Positions 1 through 10,809 of a DNA stretch of 10,809 nt are shown piece by piece. Below the pieces are notes generated by a model. The model was not told the origin of the DNA and made no database searches. It saw nothing but the letters and a program-made list of their open reading frames with translations. Each line of letters starts with the position of its first letter. The first letter of the stretch is position 1. This stretch comes from Caldifarciminota bacterium (GTDB taxonomy: Bacteria; WOR-3; Hydrothermia; UBA1063; CAJXJZ01), in assembly GCA_027073945.1 (NCBI GenBank), contig JALTEL010000462.1:1-10809 (forward strand). Direction: 5' to 3'. The translations under genes were made by a program, and so were the position numbers.

Positions 1-23
1 GCCGGGGGGATGTGAACAGTTAC
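1..23 (+). repeat. Family A palindromic element, right-end fragment
   Basis: The first 23 bases match the right outer end of family A (the GGCCGG arm end, then GGGATGTGAACAGTTAC). They join directly to the arm of the next copy at position 24. This suggests that a tandem run of A elements, like the one at the right edge, continues beyond the left edge of the window. Confidence 0.7.
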
Positions 24-154
24 CCGGCCAGTGGTAGCATTTTGAAGGGTTTCAGTGCGGATTAATAGGCAGAGGCCCTGATCTTGTGCATCAAGCGATG
101 CTTCTGAAACCCTTCAAAATGCTACCACTGGCCGGAGGGAATGTGAACAGTTAC
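24..154 (+). repeat. Family A palindromic element (left outer end missing)
   Basis: The left arm at 24-55 and right arm at 104-135 are perfect reverse complements over 32 bp, with a 48-nt loop at 56-103. The loop contains a small hairpin, GCATC-AAGC-GATGC (88-101). The right outer end reads TGTGAACAGTTAC up to 154. The left outer end (GTAACCGTTCACA and the following ~25 bp) is absent and replaced by the end of the preceding copy. It lies downstream of fliR, before the expected next flagellar gene. No protein is encoded. Transcribed on either strand it would form a long hairpin. Confidence 0.85.
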
Positions 155-251
155 ACTCTCAGAGAGTAACTATTTACTGACACTTGCGTCAAAAAAATAG
201 ATATTCTCTGACTATGACCGGGAAATCTCCCTTGGATATAAAATCGTGGCT

Positions 252-1022
252 TTACATTAAACGAAGGAGTAAATTTAACTTATCTCCAAAATTTAAAAAA
301 ATCCCACTCATTATTCTCGTAAAAATGGGAAGAGTTAATCCTATACCTATAAGTCCTATAGCTATTTTTAGAGGAAATCCGACAATAAGTATGTTGATTT
401 GGGGAACAGTTCTGGCAATTAACCCAAATCCAATACTTGTCATCAATAGTGCAGTGATAATTGGAGCACCTATCTTGACTGCAATGATAAAAATATCTTT
501 TGAAATTTCCACAATTGACTGCATTAATTCTGGCGAAAAGTGGAAATCAAGCGGGGAGATAATTCTATAGCTCTCTGCAATAGCATACAAAAATACATGG
601 TGCCCATCAACAGCAAGAAAAATTAAGATCGCAATGAGATACTGAAATTGAGCTATGATAGAAACTTGTTCACTTGTTATAGGATCAAACACATTTACAA
701 TAGCAAAACCCATTTGAAAACCTACAAGCTGCCCTGCTATCTGCACTCCAGCAAAAACCAATCTACCTGCAAAACCTATAATAATTCCAATAATAACTTC
801 CCCCAGCATTCCAGATATTAATGAAAGAATCCCAAGACTTGGAAGATGAAATTTGATAAAAGGAAAAAGAAGAAATGCTATCATTAATGATAACCCACCT
901 TTTATTCTAACAGGAACTGTTCTATTACCAAAGATCGGAATAGTGATCACTATAGCACTCGCTCTTAATAAAATAAATATAAATCTTTCTAGATCTTCAG
1001 CTGTTATTTGTGATATATTCAT
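252..1022 (-). CDS. fliR: Flagellar export gate protein FliR
   Basis: FliR is a multi-pass membrane protein of the flagellar type III export gate. It assembles with FliP and FliQ into the helical core of the export channel at the base of the MS ring. The 256-residue length is normal for the family. The protein is hydrophobic throughout, opening with ITAEDLERFIFILLRASAIV and carrying the family-typical stretch GQLVGFQMGFAIVNVFDP, then a C-terminal half with PQINILIVGFPLKIAIG. The ATG at 1022 gives the full family N-terminus, although no strong ribosome binding site is visible before it. It follows fliQ by 47 bp. flhB usually follows in such operons and would lie beyond the left edge. No damage is seen. 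Confidence 0.95.
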   Translation of the reverse strand: MNISQITAEDLERFIFILLRASAIVITIPIFGNRTVPVRIKGGLSLMIAFLLFPFIKFHLPSLGILSLISGMLGEVIIGIIIGFAGRLVFAGVQIAGQLVGFQMGFAIVNVFDPITSEQVSIIAQFQYLIAILIFLAVDGHHVFLYAIAESYRIISPLDFHFSPELMQSIVEISKDIFIIAVKIGAPIITALLMTSIGFGLIARTVPQINILIVGFPLKIAIGLIGIGLTLPIFTRIMSGIFLNFGDKLNLLLRLM

Positions 1023-1069
1023 TTGAATTGAGATAATGTTACTTAAATTTAAGCGCTAATAGTGAACCC

Positions 1070-1339
1070 TTACCTAATATACATAGGTATAGAGGAAAAA
1101 AGTCTCTGTGTATAGCTAACCATAAGATTAATCATCCAAGGAAGAGCAATAATAAGAGCAATCATAACGGCTATTATTTTGGGAACAAATGTTAATGTCA
1201 TTTCCTGAATCTGCGTCACGGCCTGAAATATACTGACAATAAGGCCAACTACAAGACCCACGATAAGCATGGGAGCAGAAAGCAATAGAGTAACTTTTAT
1301 GGCTTCACCGGCTATCCCGATAATCAAATCGGTATTCAC
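1070..1339 (-). CDS. fliQ: Flagellar export gate protein FliQ
   Basis: FliQ is a small inner-membrane subunit of the FliP-FliQ-FliR export gate. Its 89 residues match the family length. Two hydrophobic hairpin segments are visible (about residues 15-38 and 50-73) around the conserved loop VSIFQAVTQIQEMTLTFVPK. The start is GTG at 1337-1339, chosen because a clear Shine-Dalgarno (GAAAGGGG, 1346-1353) lies 6 nt upstream and the N-terminus (MNTDLIIGIAGEAIKV) fits the family. The gap to fliP upstream was widened by a family A insertion (1388-1561). That insertion leaves the ribosome binding site and about 48 bp of native leader intact. Confidence 0.95.
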   Translation of the reverse strand: MNTDLIIGIAGEAIKVTLLLSAPMLIVGLVVGLIVSIFQAVTQIQEMTLTFVPKIIAVMIALIIALPWMINLMVSYTQRLFSSIPMYIR

Positions 1340-1345
1340 TATTTG

Positions 1346-1353
1346 CCCCTTTC
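1346..1353 (-). promoter_or_regulatory. Ribosome binding site of fliQ
   Basis: On the minus strand GAAAGGGG precedes the GTG start of fliQ by 6 nt, which supports the non-ATG start. It also shows that fliQ carries its own initiation signal despite the element inserted between it and fliP. Confidence 0.7.
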
Positions 1354-1367
1354 ATTTTTTCATTATA

Positions 1368-1386
1368 TCTCTTTTAATAAAAGAGA
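1368..1386. repeat. Perfect short palindrome beside the A insertion
   Basis: TCTCTTTTA-A-TAAAAGAGA is a perfect 9-1-9 palindrome in the fliQ leader. The family A element inserted at its right edge, so the target duplication AAAGAGAA (1380-1387) overlaps one arm. It could form a small AT-rich hairpin, but it lacks the GC-rich stem of a rho-independent terminator. Confidence 0.55.
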
Positions 1387-1387
1387 A

Positions 1388-1561
1388 GTAACCGTTCACA
1401 CCCCCTCCTGTTTGCAACCCTTCATGTCTCCGGCCAGCGGTGGCCTTTTGAAGGGTTTCAGCGCAGATTAATAGGCAGAGGCCCTGATTTTGTGCATCAA
1501 GCGATGCTTCTGAAACCCTTCAAAAGGCCACCGCTGGCCGGGGAGGAATGTGAACGGGTAC
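1388..1561 (+). mobile_element. Family A palindromic element (MITE-like), fliP-fliQ gap
   Basis: This 174-bp element begins GTAACCGTTCACA and ends TGTGAACGGGTAC. It is flanked by the direct repeat AAAGAGAA at 1380-1387 and 1562-1569, the footprint of transposition. Its 32-bp arms at 1430-1461 and 1510-1541 are perfectly complementary and enclose a 48-nt loop with the conserved GCATCAAGCGATGC hairpin. It has no coding capacity. GTAA termini with an 8-bp target duplication are characteristic of IS66-family transposition (established for the family). Assigning this element to that family is inference, since no transposase is present here. Confidence 0.85.
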
Positions 1562-1582
1562 AAAGAGAACTGTATCTTATCT

Positions 1583-2362
1583 TCAACTAAAACTCCTAAC
1601 CAATGAACCAACTATTAAATACCATCCATCAGCCAACACAAAAAGAAGCAATTTGAATGGCAGGCTTATCATTACAGGTGGCAGCATCATCATCCCCATG
1701 GATAAAAGTACGCTGGCAACAACCATATCCAGTATCAAAAAAGGTAAATAAATCATAAAACCAATCTGAAAAGCTGTCTTTAATTCACTAATTATAAAAG
1801 CAGGTATTAATACTGGTAAAGTTATATCGTCTGGCGTCTTAGGTCTCTTCCCTCTTGAAATTTTTATAAATAAGGCAATATCCTTCTCTCTTGTCTGCCT
1901 TAACATAAATTTTTTCATGGCCTGCGCTGTCATGTCAAGGGCCTTTTTAGCCGATATCTGTTCATTGAAATATGGTTGCAGTGCCTGGTTATTCACCTTG
2001 TTCCAGACAGGCATCATAATAAAAAAGGTCAAAAAGAGAGATAATCCAATAATGATTTGGTTCGGGGGCATTTGCTGTGTGCCCAGAGCATGTCTTAGGA
2101 GAGAAAGAACTACAACGATTCGGGTAAATGACGTCAACATTATAAGTATTGACGGAGCAAGAGACAATACTGTAAGAATAAACAATAGCTGTAGAACTAT
2201 TGCTATTTTATTAGGTCCATTAATACTATCATCAATAGTCAACTTTAATGGCGGAATAGAGAACGATTGACACCATGCAGCATCCACAAAAAAAAAGAAC
2301 CCGGAAATTATTAATATACCTATAAGACATAACTTCCATTTATTTCCTAAGCGCTTATACAT
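1583..2362 (-). CDS. fliP: Flagellar export gate protein FliP
   Basis: FliP forms the pentameric core of the type III export gate with FliQ and FliR. The protein starts with a cleavable-looking signal peptide (basic [10 protein letters not shown], hydrophobic residues 11-27, a possible cleavage region near AAWCQS). Four membrane segments follow. Conserved family blocks include [36 protein letters not shown], and near the C-terminus [20 protein letters not shown] followed by W. The reading frame extends 24 nt further upstream to a TTG at 2386. The ATG at 2362 is preferred because purine-rich AAAGGA and AAGGGA tracts lie just upstream and none lies before the TTG. That gives 259 residues, in the family range, and an 8-nt overlap with fliO. 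The fliP-fliQ gap carries the A insertion. Confidence 0.95.
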
Positions 2363-2756
2363 TTTCCCTTTCGTTCCTTTCCACAAAATGACTATGGGAA
2401 AATATTTTTGTCTTACAGCGCATTAAATAATCAGAAAAAAGGGGGGTTTTAGCCTCTTGCCGCTGGATACTTTTCAGTTGTTCAAGCGAGCTATGATCCA
2501 CTATTTTTGTCAATAAAGATATCTGATTATTAGAGATACCAATCACCAAGATATCCCCCAATACATCGATGAGCATGATACTATTTTTGGGCCCTAGATA
2601 CTGCGTAGACAAAATCTTCATTAATCCATCATTTATTCCTCCTGTTCTCTTCATAGCCTTTTTGAGCAAGTACATGCTTATGAGCATGATACCCAGCGTA
2701 ATAGCAAGGGCCGATATGATCTTCAAAAAAAATGGGAATAGATTCGGTGAATTCAT
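2355..2756 (-). CDS. fliO: Flagellar biosynthesis protein FliO
   Basis: FliO is a small, poorly conserved membrane protein that helps assemble the FliP ring. This copy has 133 residues. It has one N-terminal membrane segment (about residues 9-31, [19 protein letters not shown]), a short basic turn (KKAMKRTGG), then a compact cytoplasmic domain with the family-typical [20 protein letters not shown] and [12 protein letters not shown]. The identification rests on this pattern together with its place between fliN and fliP. It overlaps the preferred fliP start by 8 nt, suggesting translational coupling. No strong Shine-Dalgarno is seen before the ATG, and fliN ends only 17 bp upstream. Confidence 0.9.
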
Positions 2757-2773
2757 GATATATTAAATTATGA

Positions 2774-3307
2774 TTATTTAAGTTTATTAATTCTCTCAGC
2801 AGTAGAGACAACATCCGTTAATCTAACTCCAAACTTTTCGTTAACTACGACCACTTCACCCCGAGCAATTAACCTGTCATTGACAAAAATATCCATTGGT
2901 TCTCCTGCAAGTTTCGTTAACTCTACAACTGAGCCCTGTCCTAACTGAAGAAGTTCACCTATCAACATCTTACCTCTACCCAGCTCAACAGTCACTGTAA
3001 GAGGGATATCTAAAATGAAGTCTAAATCTACTGAAGGCCCCTTCCTCTCACTTTTTTTTATGTCTTTAATCTTAACGCTACTGACCTCTTTTTTTGCAGT
3101 TGATTCCTTTGCCTTCTCAAGTTCATCCTGAACATCGTCCCAGCCAATATCTTCATCTGGTTTTGTGTCTTTAATCTTAACGCTACTGACCTCTTTTTTT
3201 GCAGTTGGCTGCTTTGCCTTCTCAAGTTCATCCTGAACATCATCCCAGCCAATATCTTCATCCGGTTTTGTGTCTTTTACTTCTTGAATTGAGTCATTCT
3301 TTTCCAT
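2774..3307 (-). CDS. fliN: Flagellar motor switch protein FliN with duplicated N-terminal extension
   Basis: FliN lines the bottom of the C-ring with FliM and helps in rotation switching and docking of export cargo. The C-terminal SpoA/FliN domain occupies about residues 97-175 (ILDIPLTVTVELGRGKMLIG, GSVVELTKLAGEPMDIFVND, LIARGEVVVVNEKFGVRLTD). The N-terminal part is an acidic and lysine-rich extension with a 35-residue unit (KDTKPDEDIGWDDVQDELEK and the following 15 residues) present twice in tandem at residues 11-45 and 46-80. The ATG at 3307 is chosen over an in-frame GTG at 3331 because AAAAGG (3317-3322) lies 9 nt before it. That gives 177 residues. The gap to fliM upstream is 549 bp from this start and full of mobile repeats. 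Confidence 0.93.
   Translation of the reverse strand: MEKNDSIQEVKDTKPDEDIGWDDVQDELEKAKQPTAKKEVSSVKIKDTKPDEDIGWDDVQDELEKAKESTAKKEVSSVKIKDIKKSERKGPSVDLDFILDIPLTVTVELGRGKMLIGELLQLGQGSVVELTKLAGEPMDIFVNDRLIARGEVVVVNEKFGVRLTDVVSTAERINKLK
3061..3270 (-). repeat. 105-bp in-frame tandem duplication inside fliN
   Basis: Two 105-bp units (3061-3165 and 3166-3270) are nearly identical in DNA and encode two 35-residue copies differing at about three residues (QP against ES near position 23, and a slightly different junction). The low divergence at DNA level, including synonymous sites, suggests a recent duplication in the linker before the FliN core domain. Confidence 0.9.
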
Positions 3308-3316
3308 ATAGATATA

Positions 3317-3322
3317 CCTTTT
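3317..3322 (-). promoter_or_regulatory. Ribosome binding site deciding the fliN start
   Basis: AAAAGG on the minus strand lies 9 nt before the ATG at 3307. The alternative GTG at 3331 has no such signal and borders the inverted repeat at 3332-3355. Confidence 0.6.
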
Positions 3323-3331
3323 ATGTAGCAC

Positions 3332-3355
3332 CTAAATTAAGCGATTAGCTATTAG
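3332..3355 (+). repeat. Left arm of a 24-bp imperfect inverted repeat bracketing the fliM-fliN gap
   Basis: Positions 3332-3355 pair with 3837-3860, with 3 mismatches in 24 when one is reverse complemented. Together they bracket the whole B/C/A nest. The left arm stops at the alternative GTG of fliN, and the right arm runs over the fliM stop codon (3857-3859). The core is TTAGCTATTAG. Whether it is the end of another, older element or a native hairpin later split by family B is not clear. Confidence 0.65.
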
Positions 3356-3395
3356 TTCAGTAACTTCTCAATAAGTCCTGGCAATACAGTGTTTC

Positions 3396-3440
3396 CCCTC
3401 ACCCAAACCCTCTCCCTTGGGGGAGAGGGCAGGGTGAGGA
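3396..3440. repeat. CCCTCACCC/CCCTCTCCC intergenic palindrome
   Basis: CCTCACCC (3397-3404) pairs with GGGTGAGG (3432-3439), and CCCTCTCCC (3408-3416) pairs with GGGAGAGGG (3421-3429), giving a two-part hairpin. This palindrome type recurs in intergenic regions of many unrelated bacteria. Here it replaces the left outer end of the C element inside B, so it arrived after C or together with a rearrangement. Confidence 0.75.
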
Positions 3441-3618
3441 GGGTGCTTCTTTTTCCAACATGCTCTCGCCCCTTGTTTTCTAAGGTTTTTGCAGCATAGG
3501 ACCCTCCCTGTTCTCCTCCGCTGCGCTCCGGAGCCAGGGTTTCCAATGCTGCAAAAACCAAGAAAACTACAGGGCTAACGCAAATCGTTTCCAAAAGAAG
3601 CACCTTGTGATCGGTTAC
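3441..3618 (+). repeat. Family C element, left end truncated
   Basis: It begins at GGGTGCTTCTTTTTCC, lacking the outer GTAACCGATCACA, and ends with GAAGCACCTTGTGATCGGTTAC-type sequence at 3618. Inner arms TAAGGTTTTTGCAGCA and TGCTGCAAAAACC form a second hairpin. It matches the reverse complement of 8029-8218 almost base for base. Confidence 0.75.
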
Positions 3619-3646
3619 ACCGAAGTTGCCAGGACTTATTGAGAAG

Positions 3647-3819
3647 GTAACCGTTCACACCCCCTCCTGTTGCAACCGCCCATGTCCCCGGCCAGCGGTA
3701 GCTTTTTTCAGGGTTTCAGTGCGGATTAATCGCAGAGTGCCCTGATCTTGTGCATCAAGCGATGCTCCTGAAACCCTGAAAAAAGCTACCGCTGGCCGGA
3801 AGGGAATGTGAACACTTAC
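3647..3819 (+). mobile_element. Family A palindromic element inserted in family B
   Basis: This 173-bp element starts GTAACCGTTCACA and ends TGTGAACACTTAC. It is flanked by the direct repeat ATTGAGAAG (3638-3646 and 3820-3828), which is part of the B inverted end. The B copy at 7997-8250 shows the uninterrupted site (ATTGAGAAGTTAC). Arms 3688-3719 and 3768-3799 are perfect 32-bp complements with a 48-nt loop. Their sequence (core GCTTTTTTCAGGG) differs from the other copies but is fully matched on both sides. Confidence 0.87.
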
Positions 3820-3856
3820 ATTGAGAAGTTACAAGGCTAATAGCTAACTGCTCAAT

Positions 3857-4831
3857 TTAGTTAGCAATAAATTGTGATATCGCTACTGCCTGGTTCCCCT
3901 TATATATGCCTGGTTGTCCCTTAAACTTAAGGACATTTTCTACATAGATATCCAGATCATCGGTGTAGCAATGATCCAATACAATCACATCTCCATCTTT
4001 CAAACCTAGAATATCCCTTCCAGTAAGTTCTGCTCTACCCAACTCAACGGTCAAGTCCACATTCGAATGCTTAAGCTCTTCCTTAAACTGATCCGCCCAT
4101 TCTCTGTCAATCTCAAGTCCTTCGGTTTGATAACCTCCTAATAAAATCTCTCTGATTGGAGCTAGTGTTGAATAAGGTATGCAAAAAATCATCGTCCCTT
4201 GAGAAAATCCTATATCACATTCAAATCTCATGACAACTACAATATCGGTAGGCGCTACAATTTGTGCAAATTGAGGATTAGTTTCCGATTTTATATAGGT
4301 GATAGTAAGGTCCTTGATAGGCTTCCATACCTTCTCAAAATCAGAGAGCGCACTCAATACAATTCTATTTATGAGTTTATTCTCTATAGATGTAAAATCT
4401 CTTCCCTCAATTTTATAGTTTTCCTGTCCTGAACCGCCAAAAATGATATCAATCAGTGCAAAGACAACTTGTGATTCAAGAATAAAGAGGGCATTGCCTT
4501 TCAATGGTTCCATCTTAAATACATGCATACTCGTAGGTACAGGCACAGTCTTCATAAATTGTCCATACTTAGTTATATCTACGGAGAGGGTAGTTATATT
4601 GATAACCTTTTTTAACAATGACGAGATCGTTATACCGAATATCCTGGTAAATTTTTCACCTGTCATTTCCAGGGCCGGCATCCTTCCCCTTACGATTCTA
4701 TCCTGGTTGGTTAGATTGTATGGCTGAACTGCTGAAGGATCAGAGATCTCCTCTTGTTCTGTTTCAATCTCTCCTCCTGATATCCCGTTTAAGAGAGCAT
4801 CTATCTCTTCCTGTGATAATATCTGGGACAT
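3857..4831 (-). CDS. fliM: Flagellar motor switch protein FliM
   Basis: FliM is the C-ring protein that receives phosphorylated CheY and passes the switching signal to FliG. The 324 residues fit the family. The N-terminal CheY-binding peptide is clear (MSQILSQEEIDALLNGI). The middle domain carries the conserved GGSG loop at residues 132-135 (DIIFGGSGQ), the FliG-contact region. The C-terminal SpoA domain starts near residue 257 (NVDLTVELGRAELTGRDILG). The ATG at 4831 has the best ribosome binding site of the window. fliL ends 38 bp upstream. The downstream gap to fliN is crowded by nested elements, and the 24-bp inverted repeat overlaps the stop codon. FliM and FliN act together, so the interruption of what is normally a tight gene pair is notable. 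Confidence 0.97.
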   Translation of the reverse strand: MSQILSQEEIDALLNGISGGEIETEQEEISDPSAVQPYNLTNQDRIVRGRMPALEMTGEKFTRIFGITISSLLKKVINITTLSVDITKYGQFMKTVPVPTSMHVFKMEPLKGNALFILESQVVFALIDIIFGGSGQENYKIEGRDFTSIENKLINRIVLSALSDFEKVWKPIKDLTITYIKSETNPQFAQIVAPTDIVVVMRFECDIGFSQGTMIFCIPYSTLAPIREILLGGYQTEGLEIDREWADQFKEELKHSNVDLTVELGRAELTGRDILGLKDGDVIVLDHCYTDDLDIYVENVLKFKGQPGIYKGNQAVAISQFIAN

Positions 4832-4836
4832 TTATG

Positions 4837-4842
4837 TCCTCC
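4837..4842 (-). promoter_or_regulatory. Strong ribosome binding site of fliM
   Basis: GGAGGA on the minus strand ends about 5 nt before the fliM ATG, a near-consensus Shine-Dalgarno. It is stronger than those of its neighbours, as might suit a C-ring protein needed in many copies. Confidence 0.75.
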
Positions 4843-4869
4843 ACCCGGATTTCATCAAACGATTCAAGG

Positions 4870-5364
4870 CTATTGAATAATAAATTCAGTAAAGTAAACC
4901 CTTGTAATTTGACCTTTGCTAAGATAGTTATTCAGGCGTAGGGCGATTTCATCCTTAAGGCGTTGTTTTCCTTCAAAAGTTGCTATATCTTTATATGTCT
5001 TTGAAGAAAGGAGGCCTAAAAGGCTATCCATTATTTCCGGCTTTAATGAATTTAATTCAGATATACAACCCTTATTAGACAATTCGAGTTGGATTGTGAT
5101 CTTCAAATATCTTCCACCATTATCATCCATCAAATTTACAATAATGCTATTTATAGGCCAAAAGAGCTTTTTTGCCTTAACTGGTTGTTTGGCCTCTTCT
5201 TTAGGATGTGTGGAAAAGTGAGTCGTATAGTACCACCAGCCACCAAAAGCCGCGGCTCCTAAGGCTACAATTGCAAAGGCTATTACAATCCATTTCAGGA
5301 AAGAGAAACTTTTTTTTGAACCCTTTTCTATAGCAGTCTCTTTTTTGATCTCTTCTTCAGCCAT
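4870..5364 (-). CDS. fliL: Flagellar basal body-associated protein FliL
   Basis: FliL is a single-pass inner-membrane protein that encircles and stabilises the stator near the basal body. The 164 residues show a charged lysine-rich N-terminus (1-20), one membrane helix (about 23-45, FLKWIVIAFAIVALGAAAFG), a proline/lysine linker, then the periplasmic FliL domain (from about 67: FWPINSIIVNLMDDNGGRYL, KITIQLELS). The C-terminus is family-typical (GQITRVYFTEFIIQ). AAGGGA lies about 6 nt before the ATG. It follows the second motB-like gene by 12 bp, so stator genes and FliL are expressed together. Confidence 0.94.
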   Translation of the reverse strand: MAEEEIKKETAIEKGSKKSFSFLKWIVIAFAIVALGAAAFGGWWYYTTHFSTHPKEEAKQPVKAKKLFWPINSIIVNLMDDNGGRYLKITIQLELSNKGCISELNSLKPEIMDSLLGLLSSKTYKDIATFEGKQRLKDEIALRLNNYLSKGQITRVYFTEFIIQ

Positions 5365-5376
5365 TAATTTCCCTTA

Positions 5377-6060
5377 TTAATCTTTTTTTAATGTCAAAAT
5401 GATCTCTACTCTCCTATTGAGTTCTCTGTTATGGTCACTCACGTTTGGATAAATGGGCCTTGAATCACCGTAACCTACAGCAGAAAGCCTCTCAGGAGAA
5501 ATATTGCCTTTAGAAATAAAATATTTAACAACGTTTACAGCACGGGCTACTGAAAGTTCCCAGTTGGAGGGAAAACGTTTAGTATCTATAGGGATATCAT
5601 CTGTATGGCCCTCCACTCTTATTTGACAATCAGTCTTCTGTAAAATAGAACTCAATTTTTTAAGAGAAGGATAGTTTTTCTTTTCGATTTCAGCCATACC
5701 TGTCTTGAAGAACAACTTTTCTTTTAATCTAACAGAAACTCCTTCCTCCGTCACCTTTGCATGCATATTATCTATATTGTTTATATGCATAGTTAATCTT
5801 CTTTTTTTCTCCTCAAACCTTAAGTGCCGATTCTCTATGGGACGGATGAAGGGCTTGAAGACTCTGCTATCTTTTTTCTCAAAATTTAATATCCCAAAGG
5901 CATCATTTATTGCATAAACTGCATCCCTGACCTTGGCCACATCAAGTTTTGACATCGAAAGGAGCAAAACAAAAAAGGTAAGGAGCAAATTCATCATATC
6001 ATTAAAAGTACACAGCCATTTACTCTCCTTATCGTCTGAATCTTTATAACGTTTCTTCAA
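5377..6060 (-). CDS. MotB-like stator protein with OmpA peptidoglycan-binding domain (Asp present)
   Basis: The single N-terminal membrane helix (residues 15-37, WLCTFNDMMNLLLTFFVLLL) matches the MotB helix. Asp21 aligns with the proton- or ion-binding aspartate (Asp32 in E. coli MotB). The OmpA-like domain (about 105-227) has IRVEGHTDDIPID, PSNWELSVARAVNVVKYF and NRRVEIIL, typical for anchoring the stator to peptidoglycan. With MotA it would form the ion channel that drives rotation. The start is TTG at 6058-6060, directly after the TGA of the gene before it. The first internal ATG would cut into the membrane helix, so TTG is the only sensible start. Of the two MotB-like proteins this one has the canonical channel residue, so it is the better candidate for the true MotB. 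Confidence 0.9.
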   Translation of the reverse strand: MKKRYKDSDDKESKWLCTFNDMMNLLLTFFVLLLSMSKLDVAKVRDAVYAINDAFGILNFEKKDSRVFKPFIRPIENRHLRFEEKKRRLTMHINNIDNMHAKVTEEGVSVRLKEKLFFKTGMAEIEKKNYPSLKKLSSILQKTDCQIRVEGHTDDIPIDTKRFPSNWELSVARAVNVVKYFISKGNISPERLSAVGYGDSRPIYPNVSDHNRELNRRVEIILTLKKD

Positions 6061-6807
6061 TCAACCCTCTTTTTTATGCAATTCAAAGTATATCTCAACT
6101 CTTCGATTTTTAATTCTGCCTTCAGGCGTACCATTTGATGCAATAGGATGATATTGACTAAATCCAATAGCAACCAATCTTTTTGCAGGAATTTTCTTTT
6201 TGAGAAGATACCGTAGGACATTTACGGCCCGAGCCGTTGATAATTCCCAATTTGATGGAAATTCAGGTGTATTGATTGGAATATTATCTGTATGTCCTTC
6301 AATCTTTATAAAAAACAAAGGATTTTTTAGAGCTATTGAAACTATTTGATCAAGATAAACCTTTGCCTTTCTTGTGATTGTAGCATCTCCTGATGCAAAC
6401 AAGACATCAGCTCCAAAACTGATCTTAACTCCGCCCTGAATTCCTTTTATATTAACAGATTCACCTAATCCCCTTTTTTTATAATATCTCTTTAAAGACT
6501 GTATGACTGAAGAAATGGAGGCCCTATCAACTTCTGTAATACCTGATTCAGAGGGCAACGGACTATTACCTCCAATAAATACCGGATTTTCCATTATCAA
6601 ATTAGATGATGAGGCCTTGTTATACTTTTTTGATAATCCCCCAAAGCCACGTCTAAAATTTGTCACTTTTCCACCTTCAATCGTTGAATAAGATACAAGC
6701 AAGGCAAAAAGGGCCACTAAAATTAGCGATAAAGAACAAAATATTAAGTCAGATCCACTATCGGATGATCCCTTTCTCCGGTCTTTTTTTTTAGGTGCCT
6801 GATTCAC
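6061..6807 (-). CDS. MotB-like OmpA-domain protein lacking the canonical channel aspartate
   Basis: The 248 residues comprise a basic N-terminus (PKKKDRRKG), one membrane helix (about 21-40, LIFCSLSLILVALFALLVSY) and a C-terminal OmpA-like domain (about 125-245: IKIEGHTDNIPIN, FPSNWELSTARAVNVLRYLL, KNRRVEIYF). Aligned on the helix end (LFALLVSYS against FFVLLLSMS of its neighbour), the proton-binding Asp position holds Ser25. Asp20 lies five residues earlier and is not an obvious substitute. The start is GTG at 6805-6807, overlapping the motA stop by 4 nt (GTGA), so it is translationally coupled to motA. It probably forms part of the stator or a heterodimer with the next protein, but the role is inferred. 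Confidence 0.87.
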   Translation of the reverse strand: MNQAPKKKDRRKGSSDSGSDLIFCSLSLILVALFALLVSYSTIEGGKVTNFRRGFGGLSKKYNKASSSNLIMENPVFIGGNSPLPSESGITEVDRASISSVIQSLKRYYKKRGLGESVNIKGIQGGVKISFGADVLFASGDATITRKAKVYLDQIVSIALKNPLFFIKIEGHTDNIPINTPEFPSNWELSTARAVNVLRYLLKKKIPAKRLVAIGFSQYHPIASNGTPEGRIKNRRVEIYFELHKKEG

Positions 6808-7571
6808 TTATCAAAAGATGACTTTCTTTCGTTGGGAGGTACAAAGGAATGAAGTTTCTGTTCTAACATCCTTGGATTGTCTCCCGACTGAATAGACAAG
6901 ATACCCGTCATAATCAATTGTTTTATAGTGAGCTCTTGAGCACTTCGCGTCTTTAGCTTGCCAGCGATAGGAAGAAAAATTAGATTTGATAAAATAACGC
7001 CATAAAAGGTGGTGATAAGGGCCACTGCCATAGACGGGCCTATAGAACTTGGATCACTCATATTCATCAACATCTTTACTAATCCAATCAATGTGCCAGT
7101 CATTCCCATAGCTGGCGCAAAATTTCCCATAGTCGTAAATACTTCTGCTCCCAGTCTATGCCTCTCCTCAGTGTAATCAATCTCTGTATTAAGGAGTTCA
7201 GACAAACTACCTGGTTCAATACCATCTATCATTAATGTCATGCCTTTAATAAAAAAAGGATCCTTAATATCTTTCAATGTATTTTCTAAACCTAATATTC
7301 CTTCACGACGAGAAATTTTTGACATATCTACCAACATCTCTATAATCTTCCCAACCCTTACCTTCTTACTGAAAAATGCATTCCTTGCCACCCTTACTAC
7401 CCCAAGGATATCCGATAGGGGATAATTAATTAAGGTAGCACCCAAAGTGCCACCCACAACAATCATGACAGATGGTAGATTTATGAATGCACCCAATCCA
7501 CCACCGATACTCATTGCAATGATCACAAGGCCAAAAGCACTTACAATTCCTAAAAGTGTTGCTAAATCCAT
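6804..7571 (-). CDS. motA: Flagellar motor stator protein MotA
   Basis: MotA is the multi-subunit stator channel protein that converts ion flow into torque on FliG. The 255 residues have four membrane segments: about 5-28, 33-50, 147-168 and 180-203. The conserved prolines are visible as Pro153 (GNFAPAMGMTGTLIGLV) and Pro201 (IFLPIAGKLK). The cytoplasmic loop has Arg89/Glu90 and Glu96, near the charged residues that contact FliG in known MotA. The ATG at 7571 is preceded by only a weak ribosome site (GGTAA). The stop overlaps the next gene by 4 nt. Upstream lies a 794-bp region with mobile repeats and a sigma-54-like promoter at 7646-7661, so motA probably starts its own transcript. Confidence 0.95.
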   Translation of the reverse strand: MDLATLLGIVSAFGLVIIAMSIGGGLGAFINLPSVMIVVGGTLGATLINYPLSDILGVVRVARNAFFSKKVRVGKIIEMLVDMSKISRREGILGLENTLKDIKDPFFIKGMTLMIDGIEPGSLSELLNTEIDYTEERHRLGAEVFTTMGNFAPAMGMTGTLIGLVKMLMNMSDPSSIGPSMAVALITTFYGVILSNLIFLPIAGKLKTRSAQELTIKQLIMTGILSIQSGDNPRMLEQKLHSFVPPNERKSSFDK

Positions 7572-7645
7572 TTAATGAATTACCAAAGATTCAGAGTTCA
7601 GCCGTAAATTTGTAGATTACCCCTAATTATTTCATTCTTGATAAG

Positions 7646-7661
7646 AGCAAATAGTGTACCA
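7646..7661 (-). promoter_or_regulatory. Candidate sigma-54 promoter for motA
   Basis: On the minus strand TGGTACACTATTTGCT has GG and GC separated by exactly 10 bases, as in the -24/-12 consensus (TGGCAC-N5-TTGC), with TTGC intact. The GC lies about 75 bp before the motA ATG and predicts a leader of about 60 nt. The -24 half falls in the degraded end of a family C element (GTACCAATCACAGGG). Sigma-54 control of flagellar genes is well known, but activity here is inferred from sequence only. Confidence 0.45.
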
Positions 7662-7792
7662 ATCACAGGGTGCTTCTTTCTCCAAGATACTCTCGTCCCT
7701 TGTTTTTTTTAAGTTTTTTGTAGTATGGGATGCTCCGGTTCCAGAGCGCAAATGCAAATCGTTTCCAGAAGAAGTACCCTGTAAGCGGTTAT
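7656..7792 (+). repeat. Family C element, solitary and degraded
   Basis: It begins GTACCAATCACAGGGTGCTTC and ends near CCCTGTAAGCGGTTAT, matching both ends of family C with several substitutions. Compared with 8029-8218 it is about 50 bp shorter, lacking the central arm and much of the second inner arm. The stretch CAAATCGTTTCC is conserved near the right end. The divergence indicates an older insertion than the two near-identical C copies. Confidence 0.7.
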
Positions 7793-7829
7793 GAATTTTA
7801 ATTGAGGACAAAAAAGGATTTCTTGACAA

Positions 7830-7849
7830 ATCGTCACTAATTTGACGAT
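7830..7849. promoter_or_regulatory. Inverted repeat, possible operator
   Basis: ATCGTCA (7830-7836) and TGACGAT (7843-7849) are perfect 7-bp arms with a 6-nt spacer, in the otherwise unexplained 109-bp stretch between the C and A elements. The form suits a dimeric regulator site upstream of motA, but no known operator is recognised and it may equally be part of older repeat debris. Confidence 0.3.
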
Positions 7850-7996
7850 CAGGAAAGATGCATTCAGTGAAACCCAGAGTTGGATATGGAACTCCCAGGA
7901 CGTAACCGTTCACATTCCCCCGGCCAGCAGTAGCCTTTTGAAGGGTTTTAGAAGCATCGCTTGATGCACAAAATCAGACACTTTGCTCATTAATCC

Positions 7997-8250
7997 CTAA
8001 CTTCTCAATAAGTCCTGGCAACTTCGATGTAACCGATCACAGGGTGCTTCTTTTGGAAACGATTTGCGTTAGCCCTGTAGTTTTCTTGGTTTTTGCAGCA
8101 TTGGAAACCCTGGCTCCGGAGCACAGCGGAGGAGAACAGGGAGGGTCCTATGCTGCAAAAACCTTAGAAAACAAGGGGCGAGAGCATGTTGGAAAAGAAG
8201 CACCCTGTGATCGGTTACCAAAAAGAAGCCTCCACTTATTGAGAAGTTAC
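7997..8250 (-). mobile_element. Family B palindromic element inserted in the loop of family A
   Basis: The 254-bp element has ends CTAACTTCTCAATAAGT and ACTTATTGAGAAGTTAC. It is flanked by exact 8-bp direct repeats ATTAATCC (7989-7996 and 8251-8258), a motif found once in uninterrupted A loops. It encloses a complete family C element (8029-8218). Both the B and C ends read GTAAC or a close variant, like those of A. It carries no plausible gene. Confidence 0.88.
8029..8218 (-). repeat. Family C element, complete
   Basis: This 190-bp element has inverted ends GTAACCGATCACAGGGTGCT (8029 onwards) and the complement ending GTGATCGGTTAC at 8218, extending through the TTCTTTT tract. A second, inner inverted pair (TTTTTGCAGCA and its complement) surrounds a GC-rich core with TCCGGAGC. 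It serves as the reference for the truncated copy at 3441-3618 and the degraded one at 7656-7792. Confidence 0.8.
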
Positions 8251-8365
8251 ATTAATCCGCACTGAAACCCTTCAAAATGCTACCGCTGGCCGGAGACATG
8301 GACGGTTGCAACAGGAGGGTGTGAACGGTTACTGCGGCTTCATTGAACTCTCCAGTTAATACACA

Positions 8366-9619
8366 TTACCTTTTAATATTCATAAGTTCGGACAGCATTT
8401 GATCAGTAGTTGTAATGACCTTGGCGTTGGCTTGATATGCCTTTTGAGCAGTGATCATATTGATAAATTCTTTAGCAATATCGGTGTTCGACATCTCAAG
8501 AGAATTGGGATTAATCTTTCCCAATCCACCCGTCCCGGGTTTATTTACAAGTGCATTACCCGAACTCTCAGTAGCAGCAAACAGACTGGATCCTATCTTC
8601 TTTAATCCCAATGTATTTGTAAATTTTGCCAGTGCAATCTGCCCTATTTTTGTACTCTGCCCATTTGTAAAAAAACCATTAATGACACCATCAGTTCCAA
8701 CCGAGATGCTCTGCAACTCACCCGAGGCCCAACCATCACTGACAAGAGACCTATTAACTGAAGGGCTGGCATACCCTGTCATCACCTCAGGAGTAAGCGA
8801 CTTTGCTGTACTTCCATCTATAACCCATGTTATATTATTTGAACCGTCGCCAATAGTTGCTCCACTGGGGTTGGAAGCGGGTGTGCTCTGAAAGGTATTA
8901 AAATTTAAGACAGTATCTGCAGTCGGCGTTTTCAGACTTCCATCAGTGTTAAAGGTTATTGTTGCAGCAGCGGTATCAGATGCTATTCCATCCAGATAGG
9001 CCTGATATTGCCATTCACCTGCATTTGCGGTCTTTGTAAATTCCATCTTTAGGTTATGTGCACCTCCCAATGAATCATAAACCGTCTGTACTGAGACAAA
9101 TTTTTGACCCTCGGCAGTATCCGAATTGAGGTTCGCGCCGATGGAAAACTCAGTAGTGGCTGATGGGGTCGACTGAAGGCCACTCAAAGAGATATCCCCA
9201 ATTGTATTTGTGTTGACACCGTCTTGATATTGATATCCTTGAACTTTGTATCCATTTACATCCATCAGATATCCACCTTTACCTATATTAAGCATACCAT
9301 CTCTGGTATAATAGGTGGCGCCATCGGAATTATTAACCATAAAAAAGCCCTCTCCATCTATTGCAAGATCAGTAGGACTCTGCGTGCTCTCGAAAGAACC
9401 CTGTCCGAACAGCGTAGGAACTGCATCTACCTTCACACCTCTTCCTACCTGCATTGTGCCTGAGCCTCCTGCAATACTTTGGCTTAAGATGTCGCCAAAG
9501 GCAACAGTCCCCGCCTTAAAACCTATTGTATTGACATTTGCTATATTATTGCCTATGACATCCATCTGCTTGGCACTGGCATTCAAGCCCGAGATCCCTG
9601 ACCATAATGAACCTGTCAT
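8366..9619 (-). CDS. flgE: Flagellar hook protein FlgE
   Basis: FlgE polymerises outside the cell into the curved hook joining rod to filament, and is exported by the type III apparatus. The 417 residues show the N-terminal rod/hook motif (SLWSGISGLNASAKQMDVIG, NNIANVNTIGFK at about 24-35), the family stretch DLAIDGEGFFMV (84-95), a variable Ser/Thr/Asn-rich middle region that would be surface-exposed, and the C-terminal coiled segment (SNTDIAKEFINMITAQKAYQ through to the end, about 377-417). The ATG at 9619 is preceded by AAGGGGG about 9 nt away. It follows flgD by 34 bp. Downstream, the usual short distance to the next flagellar gene is expanded to 794 bp by nested repeats. Confidence 0.96.
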   Translation of the reverse strand: MTGSLWSGISGLNASAKQMDVIGNNIANVNTIGFKAGTVAFGDILSQSIAGGSGTMQVGRGVKVDAVPTLFGQGSFESTQSPTDLAIDGEGFFMVNNSDGATYYTRDGMLNIGKGGYLMDVNGYKVQGYQYQDGVNTNTIGDISLSGLQSTPSATTEFSIGANLNSDTAEGQKFVSVQTVYDSLGGAHNLKMEFTKTANAGEWQYQAYLDGIASDTAAATITFNTDGSLKTPTADTVLNFNTFQSTPASNPSGATIGDGSNNITWVIDGSTAKSLTPEVMTGYASPSVNRSLVSDGWASGELQSISVGTDGVINGFFTNGQSTKIGQIALAKFTNTLGLKKIGSSLFAATESSGNALVNKPGTGGLGKINPNSLEMSNTDIAKEFINMITAQKAYQANAKVITTTDQMLSELMNIKR

Positions 9620-9653
9620 TTTTCATTACCCCCTTATTATTTCCATTACCTTG

Positions 9654-10295
9654 TCAATCCTGTAAGTCATTCACGGAAATCACATCTCCGAAAGAAATTT
9701 CCTGTCCGTTGATAGAAAGATAGGGAGAACCATTTTTAAAGGTAACTCCGCTTACTACGCCTGTTGTCATTGTATCAGCGCCGACATTATCACCATTAAC
9801 ATCAGTTGCAGATACAACGAAGGTGTAATCACCTTTTGAAACACCACTGCAATCCCACTTAACTGAATTCTTACCTTTTTTTTGATTTCCAAAGTCAAGG
9901 GTATCTACTAGATCTCCATTCTTATTATAGATCTTGACACTGACTTTTTTGGCATCCCCCGATAAATTGTAGACCAGATCAGTAGATGCACCTTCTGCTT
10001 TGATGACATTACCTTTTGCGCTAACCTGCTTGCCTATGAGATTTACTGACTGGGCACTGTTTACCGATGCCTGATAAAGATTCATGGTCTTTAGTTGATC
10101 GTTTATATTATCTAGCTGTTCAAGACTCGAGAATTGAGCAAGCTGGGCCGCAAAATCTTTCCCGTCTATAGGATTGAGAGGATCCTGGTTCTGCATTTGG
10201 GCCACCAGCATCTTAAAGAAGGCATCTTTGCCTATCTTATTTCCTTGCGTAAAATTCTGGGAATTATTATTTGTAACAGCTTCTATGCCAGTCAT
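9654..10295 (-). CDS. flgD: Flagellar hook cap (hook assembly scaffold) protein FlgD
   Basis: FlgD caps the growing hook, guides FlgE assembly and is absent from the finished flagellum. The 213 residues contain the signature FFKMLVAQMQNQDPLNPIDG (about 26-45) followed by KDFAAQLAQFSSLEQLDNIN. A C-terminal Ig/Tudor-like region (about 85-205) includes VNLIGKQVSAKGNVIKAEG, a FlgD Ig-like loop (KIYNKNGDLVDTLDFG) and GVVSGVTFKNGSPYLSINGQ. The ATG at 10295 is preceded by AAGGGGG (10304-10310) with 8 nt spacing. A nearby ATG at 10300 is out of frame and stops at once. The region upstream is a tandem array of A elements starting 45 bp away. Confidence 0.96.
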   Translation of the reverse strand: MTGIEAVTNNNSQNFTQGNKIGKDAFFKMLVAQMQNQDPLNPIDGKDFAAQLAQFSSLEQLDNINDQLKTMNLYQASVNSAQSVNLIGKQVSAKGNVIKAEGASTDLVYNLSGDAKKVSVKIYNKNGDLVDTLDFGNQKKGKNSVKWDCSGVSKGDYTFVVSATDVNGDNVGADTMTTGVVSGVTFKNGSPYLSINGQEISFGDVISVNDLQD

Positions 10296-10303
10296 TTCAT
10301 ACG

Positions 10304-10310
10304 CCCCCTT
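10304..10310 (-). promoter_or_regulatory. Ribosome binding site of flgD
   Basis: AAGGGGG on the minus strand, 8 nt before the ATG, is a good Shine-Dalgarno and fixes the flgD start. flgE has the same AAGGGGG about 9 nt before its start, suggesting matched initiation for the hook pair. Confidence 0.65.
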
Positions 10311-10339
10311 GTATAATTTACCATGGAGATAAATTCACT

Positions 10340-10511
10340 GTAACCGTTCACACCCTCTCCTGTTGCAACCGTCCACGTCCCTGGTCAGCAGTAGCATTTT
10401 GAAGGGTTTCAGTGCGGATTAATACGCAGAGGCCCTGATCTTGTGCATCAGGCGATGCTCCTGAAACCCTTCAAAAGGCTACTGCTGGCCGGGGGGAATG
10501 TAAACAGTTAC
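10340..10511 (+). mobile_element. Family A palindromic element, first of a tandem array
   Basis: It starts GTAACCGTTCACACCCTC and ends TGTAAACAGTTAC. Arms are 10381-10412 and 10461-10492 with a 48-nt loop and 3 arm mismatches (one A against G, two T against G that could pair as wobble on one strand). This unit has the complete left outer end, so the array probably grew rightward from it. Confidence 0.85.
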
Positions 10512-10661
10512 ATTGCAACCGTCCACGTCCCTGGTCAGCAGTAGCATTTTGAAGGGTTTCAGTGCGGATTAATACGCAGAGGCCCTGATTTTGTGCATCA
10601 AGCGATGCTCCTGAAACCCTTCAAAAGGCTACTGCTGGCCGGGGGGAATGTAAACAGTTAC
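10512..10661 (+). repeat. Family A tandem unit 2 (150 bp)
   Basis: It begins ATTGCAACCGTCCACGTCC, directly after the GTTAC of unit 1, and lacks the GTAACCGTTCACACC outer end. It differs from unit 1 at only a few positions (GATTTTG for GATCTTG, CATCAAGC for CATCAGGC). The period is exactly 150 bp. Confidence 0.87.
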
Positions 10662-10809
10662 ATTGCAACCGTCCACGTCCCCGGTCAGCAGTAGCATTTT
10701 GAAGGGTTTCAGTGCGGATTAATACGCAGAGGCCCTGATTTTGTGCATCAAGCGATGCTCCTGAAACCCTTCAAAAGGCTACTGCTGGCCGGGGGGAATG
10801 TAAACAGTT
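10662..10809 (+). repeat. Family A tandem unit 3 (runs to the window edge)
   Basis: It is near-identical to unit 2, with CCCCGGTCAGC instead of CCCTGGTCAGC at the arm start. The window ends two bases before the unit would close, so the array very likely continues. No coding sequence is seen here. Confidence 0.85.

Follow-up and report, generated by a model that had tools for sequence, protein, structure and literature searches.

How can the two arms of a long hairpin differ from copy to copy and still be complementary within a copy? The question is raised by family A, a hairpin repeat present as seven two-armed copies in contig JALTEL010000462.1 of a Caldifarciminota bacterium (assembly GCA_027073945.1); the whole stretch analysed, positions 1 to 10,809 of the forward strand (10,809 nt), is referred to here as the window. 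In three of these copies the 32-nt arms are complementary at 32 of 32 positions around loops of exactly 48 nt, and the arm sequences differ among the three copies with each change on one arm mirrored on the other. An earlier note on this DNA had called attention to the three copies and suggested that either the folded form is under selection or one arm is copied onto the other. The evidence leans toward the latter: matched arms are probably made by DNA arm-to-arm copying (template switching) in the hairpin, which we favour over selection on a folded RNA. The arms of the three copies are as follows.

24..55, plus strand: left arm, perfect partner of 104-135, loop of 48 nt
104..135, plus strand: right arm, partner of 24-55
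1430..1461, plus strand: left arm, perfect
1510..1541, plus strand: right arm, perfect
3688..3719, plus strand: left arm, perfect, TC type at pairs 21-22
3768..3799, plus strand: right arm, perfect

The other four two-armed copies in the window carry two to three mismatches, leaving three of seven perfect.

Covariation of the hairpin arms

Further copies came from a 25-base pattern compared with 84,980 species genomes, which returned 116 stretches, all in one metagenome-assembled genome (MAG), JALTHV01 (G001; 'Deltaproteobacteria bacterium isolate S016_metabat2_scaf2bin.123'). Because the pattern fixes the end of the loop and the start of the right arm, copies broken there are under-sampled. 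The covariation set comprises 169 oriented copies with near-gapless arms from the MAG plus the window, six of them from the window, after 3 of 172 had been dropped for gapped arms; most of the weight thus rests on one MAG.

Perfect arms are found in 46 of the 169 copies, with a mean of 1.86 mismatches per copy (315 of 5,399 pair cells). On the tree built from all columns, both partners of a pair change on one branch 54 times, in 47 cases from one match to another, whereas the null averages 13.0 (maximum 25 in 500); when partners were shifted by 1, 2, 3 or 5 columns either way, the eight controls gave 4-9 double changes. On the tree built from non-arm columns the corresponding values are 108 against a null mean of 37.0 (maximum 49), with 8-22 for the shifts. 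The trees, each with about 110-173 columns behind it, are weak and take no account of recombination between copies. The earlier statement that independent drift cannot give such a pattern is borne out by this excess of double changes and does not extend to most arm changes. Nor is each change mirrored once the whole set is considered, as 180 inferred changes on the all-column tree turn a match into a one-sided mismatch and 51 restore a match. Unmatched substitutions accruing at the loop rate in most copies had been named as the result that would speak against matching, and this was found by half: 123 of the 169 copies have at least one unmatched pair, whereas arm columns average about 2.8 unmatched changes (180 events, 64 columns) and loop columns 4.25, or 3.5 and 4.1 on the non-arm-column tree (221 events), and matched changes are still far above chance.

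The comparison of arm-arm divergence that had been suggested gave 5.8% mismatch per pair within copies and 12.0% between copies. In the permutation test, from which cores with 12 or more mismatches were dropped (18 of 173), the arms of 155 copies mismatch at 6.2% within copies versus 16.6% when permuted, the observed 309 mismatches comparing with a lowest value of 731 in 2,000 permutations. The 13-bp terminal repeats of the element serve as a control: in 56 copies they mismatch at 10.9% within and 10.6% between copies (p 0.89) and show no covariation. The covariation is seen specifically in the arms of the hairpin.

Leaving aside pairs 16, 21 and 22, 22 of the 23 double states at the remaining 29 pairs are complementary, and these are carried by 97 copies where 15 would be expected from independent sides. 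A pair-counting analysis of 50 cores (43 distinct), picked at random from the 96 cores with 49-nt loops and including none from the window, gave a covariation score of 0.134 compared with 0.072 (sd 0.005) in shuffles, none of 500 reaching it, and at most 0.048 when the arms were slid. Pair counting agrees on four of five measures, the weakest being the number of further pair types (26 versus 23.8, reached by 32 of 500 shuffles).

One way for both arms to change together without any arm copying would be recombination between copies, in which whole hairpins are exchanged among subfamilies. Many similar copies and a noisy tree at pairs 21-22 are what such exchange would lead one to expect. However, exchange cannot make new matched states, and several complementary double states are each confined to 1-3 copies. 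We consider recombination between copies very improbable as the source of the pattern.

Polarity, loop inversion and paired insertions

Pairs 21-22 record a polarity. Oriented by the loop, they read GA on the left and TC on the right in 14 of 14 readable copies of the relative G002 (23 rows), and in the single readable copy of each of G026 and G035, making 16 of 16 over three relatives; four loci (L207, L153, L154 and L157) were left out of this reading as chance or partial matches. In the MAG-plus-window set of 173, by contrast, 71 copies are GA/GA, 56 TC/TC, 19 GA/TC, none TC/GA and 27 other. Since GA/TC is kept in the related genomes and stands beside both matched forms in the MAG, the mismatched form is probably ancient, and copying in either direction would turn it into one or other of the matched forms. 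Parallel double substitutions on the two arms, giving both matched forms, are hard to picture. Random swapping inside the loop, a version of recombination between copies, predicts equal numbers of GA/TC and TC/GA, in conflict with the counts of 19 and 0.

The GA/TC form of G002, G026 and G035 puts TGAA on both strands and so places tandem G-A mismatches in the stem. Tandem G-A pairs are stable, and the old mismatched form may have been kept for its shape.

The three classes also differ elsewhere in the stem. Mismatches at the other 29 pairs average 1.40 in GA/GA (n 70), 0.83 in TC/TC (n 54) and 3.33 in GA/TC copies (n 15; p 7e-5), after cores with at least 12 mismatches had been dropped (1 of 71, 2 of 56 and 4 of 19, respectively). 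Fewer mismatches elsewhere in the matched classes are as expected if longer tracts are copied.

Loop orientation is a second mark. Measured against the element ends, seven long-form copies have an inverted loop and 57 the standard orientation; the count is that of a strict threshold, a loose one having given 18. Perfect arms are present in 4 of the 7 inverted-loop copies and 10 of the 57 standard ones. The nearest core to an inverted copy is a standard one in five cases, with one tie and one inverted neighbour, which suggests that most loop inversions are separate events. A separate scheme of loop-orientation classes (L/L, R/R and R/L) was abandoned, since it was in part artificial, produced by short forms with an end similar to the spacer of the long form.

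Insertions and substitution types bear on the same question. Among 103 copies measured, 17 have an extra base in the middle of an arm, and in 9 of these both arms carry one. Transversions make up 8 of 22 double states and 21 of 65 single states. Transitions would be expected to prevail if compensation ran through G-U intermediates, and double states as rich in transversions as single ones therefore count for copying.

Selection, assembly and the matched state

The alternative that merits most attention is selection on the folded form, by which pairing is maintained in a hairpin that functions as RNA or is required, as DNA, for transposition, and the matched changes are ordinary compensatory mutations. 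The stem is very stable (-66 to -79 kcal/mol, z -9.9 to -12.9 in four window copies), and losses of mismatches are relatively commoner on internal branches (19 losses beside 40 gains) than on terminal ones (32 beside 140), both in keeping with selection. One-sided events of G-U type exceed those of A-C type, 74 to 52, but the excess is not significant (p 0.06). Among the loci of the MAG (173 cores), 55 of 77 family A elements with co-directional flanking genes are oriented against them (p 2e-4), so that orientation matters for something. The two signals combine poorly because the G-U excess is on the strand that the flanking genes transcribe less.

Other observations are difficult to reconcile with selection. 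Transversions are no rarer in double changes than in single ones, and the share of match-to-match changes is alike on internal branches (11, with 40 one-sided changes) and terminal ones (36, with 140). Copies mismatched at pair 16 have multiplied, with A/C there in 41 of 169. Between copies, the arms diverge at least as much as the loop (0.116 versus 0.085). Selection does not predict inversion of the loop, and there is no Rfam match, none of the 4227 families of Rfam 15 reaching its gathering score in the window. We therefore regard selection on the fold as an unlikely explanation of the pattern as a whole, though it may have a share in the matched changes.

Matched arms or flipped loops could also be made by short-read assembly of an abundant hairpin repeat. 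Contigs of the MAG carry NODE and coverage names, and the window ends inside tandem copies, circumstances in which such artefacts might arise. Against this, mismatches are kept in most copies, the terminal repeats of the same copies are not homogenised, and an exact 8-bp target duplication surrounds 23 of 70 full copies. An assembly artefact is the least probable of the explanations considered, and we give it hardly any weight.

Family A as a mobile element

Family A is a short non-autonomous mobile element (miniature inverted-repeat transposable element, MITE) of about 148-175 bp, with IS66-like ends around a long hairpin. Its termini are GTAAC...GTTAC, and full copies run GTAACCGTTCACA...TGTGAACRGTTAC as terminal inverted repeats. 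Allowing at most one mismatch, a 17-base end pattern occurs 88 + 97 times in the MAG, compared with 2 + 0 for a control. Among 70 full copies, 23 have exact 8-bp target duplications at unshifted ends, another 23 have matches of 5-11 bp within shifts of 2, and 24 have none. In the short form, of about 148-152 bp, the terminal repeat directly adjoins each arm; the long form has an additional outer left end and a spacer. By a simple rule for open reading frames, one of 173 cores lies inside a frame of at least 100 aa, and no frame of at least 60 aa was found within the two full window elements at 1388-1561 and 3647-3819. Literature searches turned up no openly licensed paper on the element, and family A seems to be undescribed while the process of arm copying is already known.

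GTAA ends and 8-bp target duplications are known as general marks of IS66. Both features are common to family A and to an IS66 element of the relative G041, which ends in GTAAGCGCTTCATTAAACCCC on one side and is flanked by an exact 8-bp duplication. Compared with IS66-like MITEs, family A shares these ends and duplications and differs by its 32-bp internal hairpin. The IS66 transposase (PF03050) gave no matches in G001 or G002, partial matches in G026 and G035, and any match in 9 of 60 relatives. No IS66 partner with family A's own ends was found among 20 fetched transposase loci of relatives, which are mostly fragments, and the MAG is incomplete. Since searches of G001 and G002 found no IS66 transposase, we call family A IS66-like and do not file it as IS66, and for the same reason the mobilising enzyme is deduced from the ends and target duplications, which point to a transposase acting on the ends of the element.

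REPINs, like family A, are short dispersed bacterial hairpin repeats without a transposase of their own, and they are known to go with Y1-type transposases. Family A differs in having terminal repeats and 8-bp target duplications. A search for Y1 found a single place in the MAG (30 of 121 positions, 25.1 bits versus a cut-off of 23). An IS200/IS605-derived, REPIN-like origin was set aside in view of the target duplications and the short, partial Y1 match.

Four genomes of 60, G001 itself among them, contain diverged copies of family A (the others being G002, G026 and G035); those of G002 are about 79-80% identical over nearly the full length. An element of G035 is matched by the same four genomes among 148. 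The series of bin names to which JALTHV01 belongs appears in a study of deep-sea hydrothermal deposits (PMC9793634), in passages that do not include bin 123. Comparison of 147 loci with the window found no long stretch in common, and FliM was not found in the MAG; the window is another genome than the MAG, or an unbinned part.

Gene context and further repeats in the window

The window contains a minus-strand flagellar gene cluster, and the seven two-armed copies lie between or beside its genes. Among ten window proteins scanned, FliR, FliQ, FliP, FliN, FliM and a member of the FlgEFG subfamily passed the NCBIfam cut-offs; FliL, MotB, MotA and FlgD were best matches but fell below them. The family A units are as follows.

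1..154, plus strand: right end of an A unit at 1-23, directly followed by another unit at 24-154, read from the sequence and of the same kind as the period-150 units at 10340-10809
1388..1561, plus strand: full A element between fliQ and fliP, with ends GTAACCGTTCACA and TGTGAACGGGTAC
3647..3819, plus strand: full A element between the fliN-type and fliM genes
7902..8332, minus strand: reverse-oriented A element, split by another repeat at 7997-8249
10340..10511, plus strand: full A element that opens a tandem array; hairpin 10381-10492, mismatches at pairs 2, 5 and 16
10513..10661, plus strand: second tandem unit, without the outer left end; hairpin 10531-10642, mismatches at pairs 2, 5 and 16
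10663..10809, plus strand: third tandem unit, cut by the window end; hairpin 10681-10792, mismatches at pairs 5 and 16

The element at 1388-1561 is flanked by an 8-bp target duplication, AAAGAGAA, at 1380-1387 and 1562-1569, and that at 3647-3819 by ATTGAGAAG at 3638-3646 and 3820-3828, with nine matching bases. Tandem copies with a period of 150 bp are present at both window ends (10340-10809 and 1-154), the later units without the outer left end; the units at 1-154 are probably the end of a tandem array severed by the contig end.

In the interrupted copy the arms are 7920-7951 and 8262-8293, with three mismatches (pairs 10, 16 and 30), and no target duplication was seen around 7902-8332. The repeat inside it, at 7997-8249, has ends TAACTTCTCAATAAG...CTTATTGAGAAGTTA and is flanked by CATTAATCC at 7988-7996 and 8250-8258; positions 7998-8196 are complementary to 3451-3649 at 98%. 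Within this second repeat lies a third, at 8029-8218, with ends GTAACCGATCACAGGGTGC and GTGATCGGTTAC. Because these ends are close to those of family A, the mobile families here may be related, nested three deep. Separately, the N-terminal part of the fliN-type gene contains a 105-bp tandem duplication (3056-3265, 94% identical) in which the frame stays open.

Discussion

The sequence of events that we consider probable begins with a transposase that would have spread family A by acting on the element ends. In a resident or source copy, replication or repair would occasionally template one hairpin arm on the other, by template switching in a hairpin or cruciform, matching the arms in either direction over part or the whole of their length and sometimes inverting the loop. 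Transposition would then multiply the converted versions, giving subfamilies that differ in arm sequence yet match within a copy, while fresh one-sided mutations would leave most copies imperfect. We infer that most matched changes were made by conversion rather than selection, and that the agent was template switching rather than recombination between the arms.

Several points weigh against this account. One-sided changes outnumber matched ones (180 versus 47 match to match), so that copying is not efficient, and G002 is mismatched in every readable copy, which would make copying an infrequent or lineage-specific event. How many switches took place at pairs 21-22 is loosely constrained, the minimum being 7, 30 or 39 depending on the tree; when the matched forms are allowed to arise from GA/TC only, it is 30 on the all-column tree and 58 and 86 on the others, the latter two scores perhaps including a penalised step. 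A double change on one branch need not be a single event. The greater age of mismatched copies alone could explain part of the difference between classes at pairs 21-22, whose loop divergence differs marginally (p 0.06). Matched insertions and matched states are partly common by descent. Finally, the sequences are assembled contigs and may contain assembly errors.

Arm copying might be part of the life cycle of the element, with a hairpin or single-stranded stage of transposition templating one arm on the other. We think this improbable; if true, a single transposition event could rewrite the stem, turn the loop round and restore the palindrome.

For template switching between short inverted repeats, homogenisation of the arms together with inversion of the spacer is a mark already described (PMC8604942). 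Family A resembles that system in combining arm homogenisation, multi-base changes and spacer inversion. The repeats described there are single and scattered in yeast genes, whereas family A is one bacterial mobile family of more than 150 copies, in which the mismatched form in relatives gives the direction of copying. According to PMC8794818, template switching can create and maintain the hairpins of RNA genes; the likeness is that matched changes come from a DNA copying event and not from two mutations, and the difference is that those RNA genes are under selection while family A has no known RNA function. Actively maintained inverted repeats in Caenorhabditis, as portrayed in PMC1803023, are similar to family A in that the inverted-repeat structure is better conserved than the sequence, and differ in being long and belonging to genes and intergenic DNA of worms.

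Covariation is commonly taken as proof of a functional RNA. Family A combines strong, tree-corrected covariation with signs of DNA arm copying and no known RNA function, and is thus a natural control for covariation tests. With well over a hundred copies, it provides a replicate-rich record of arm-to-arm copying within one bacterial genome.

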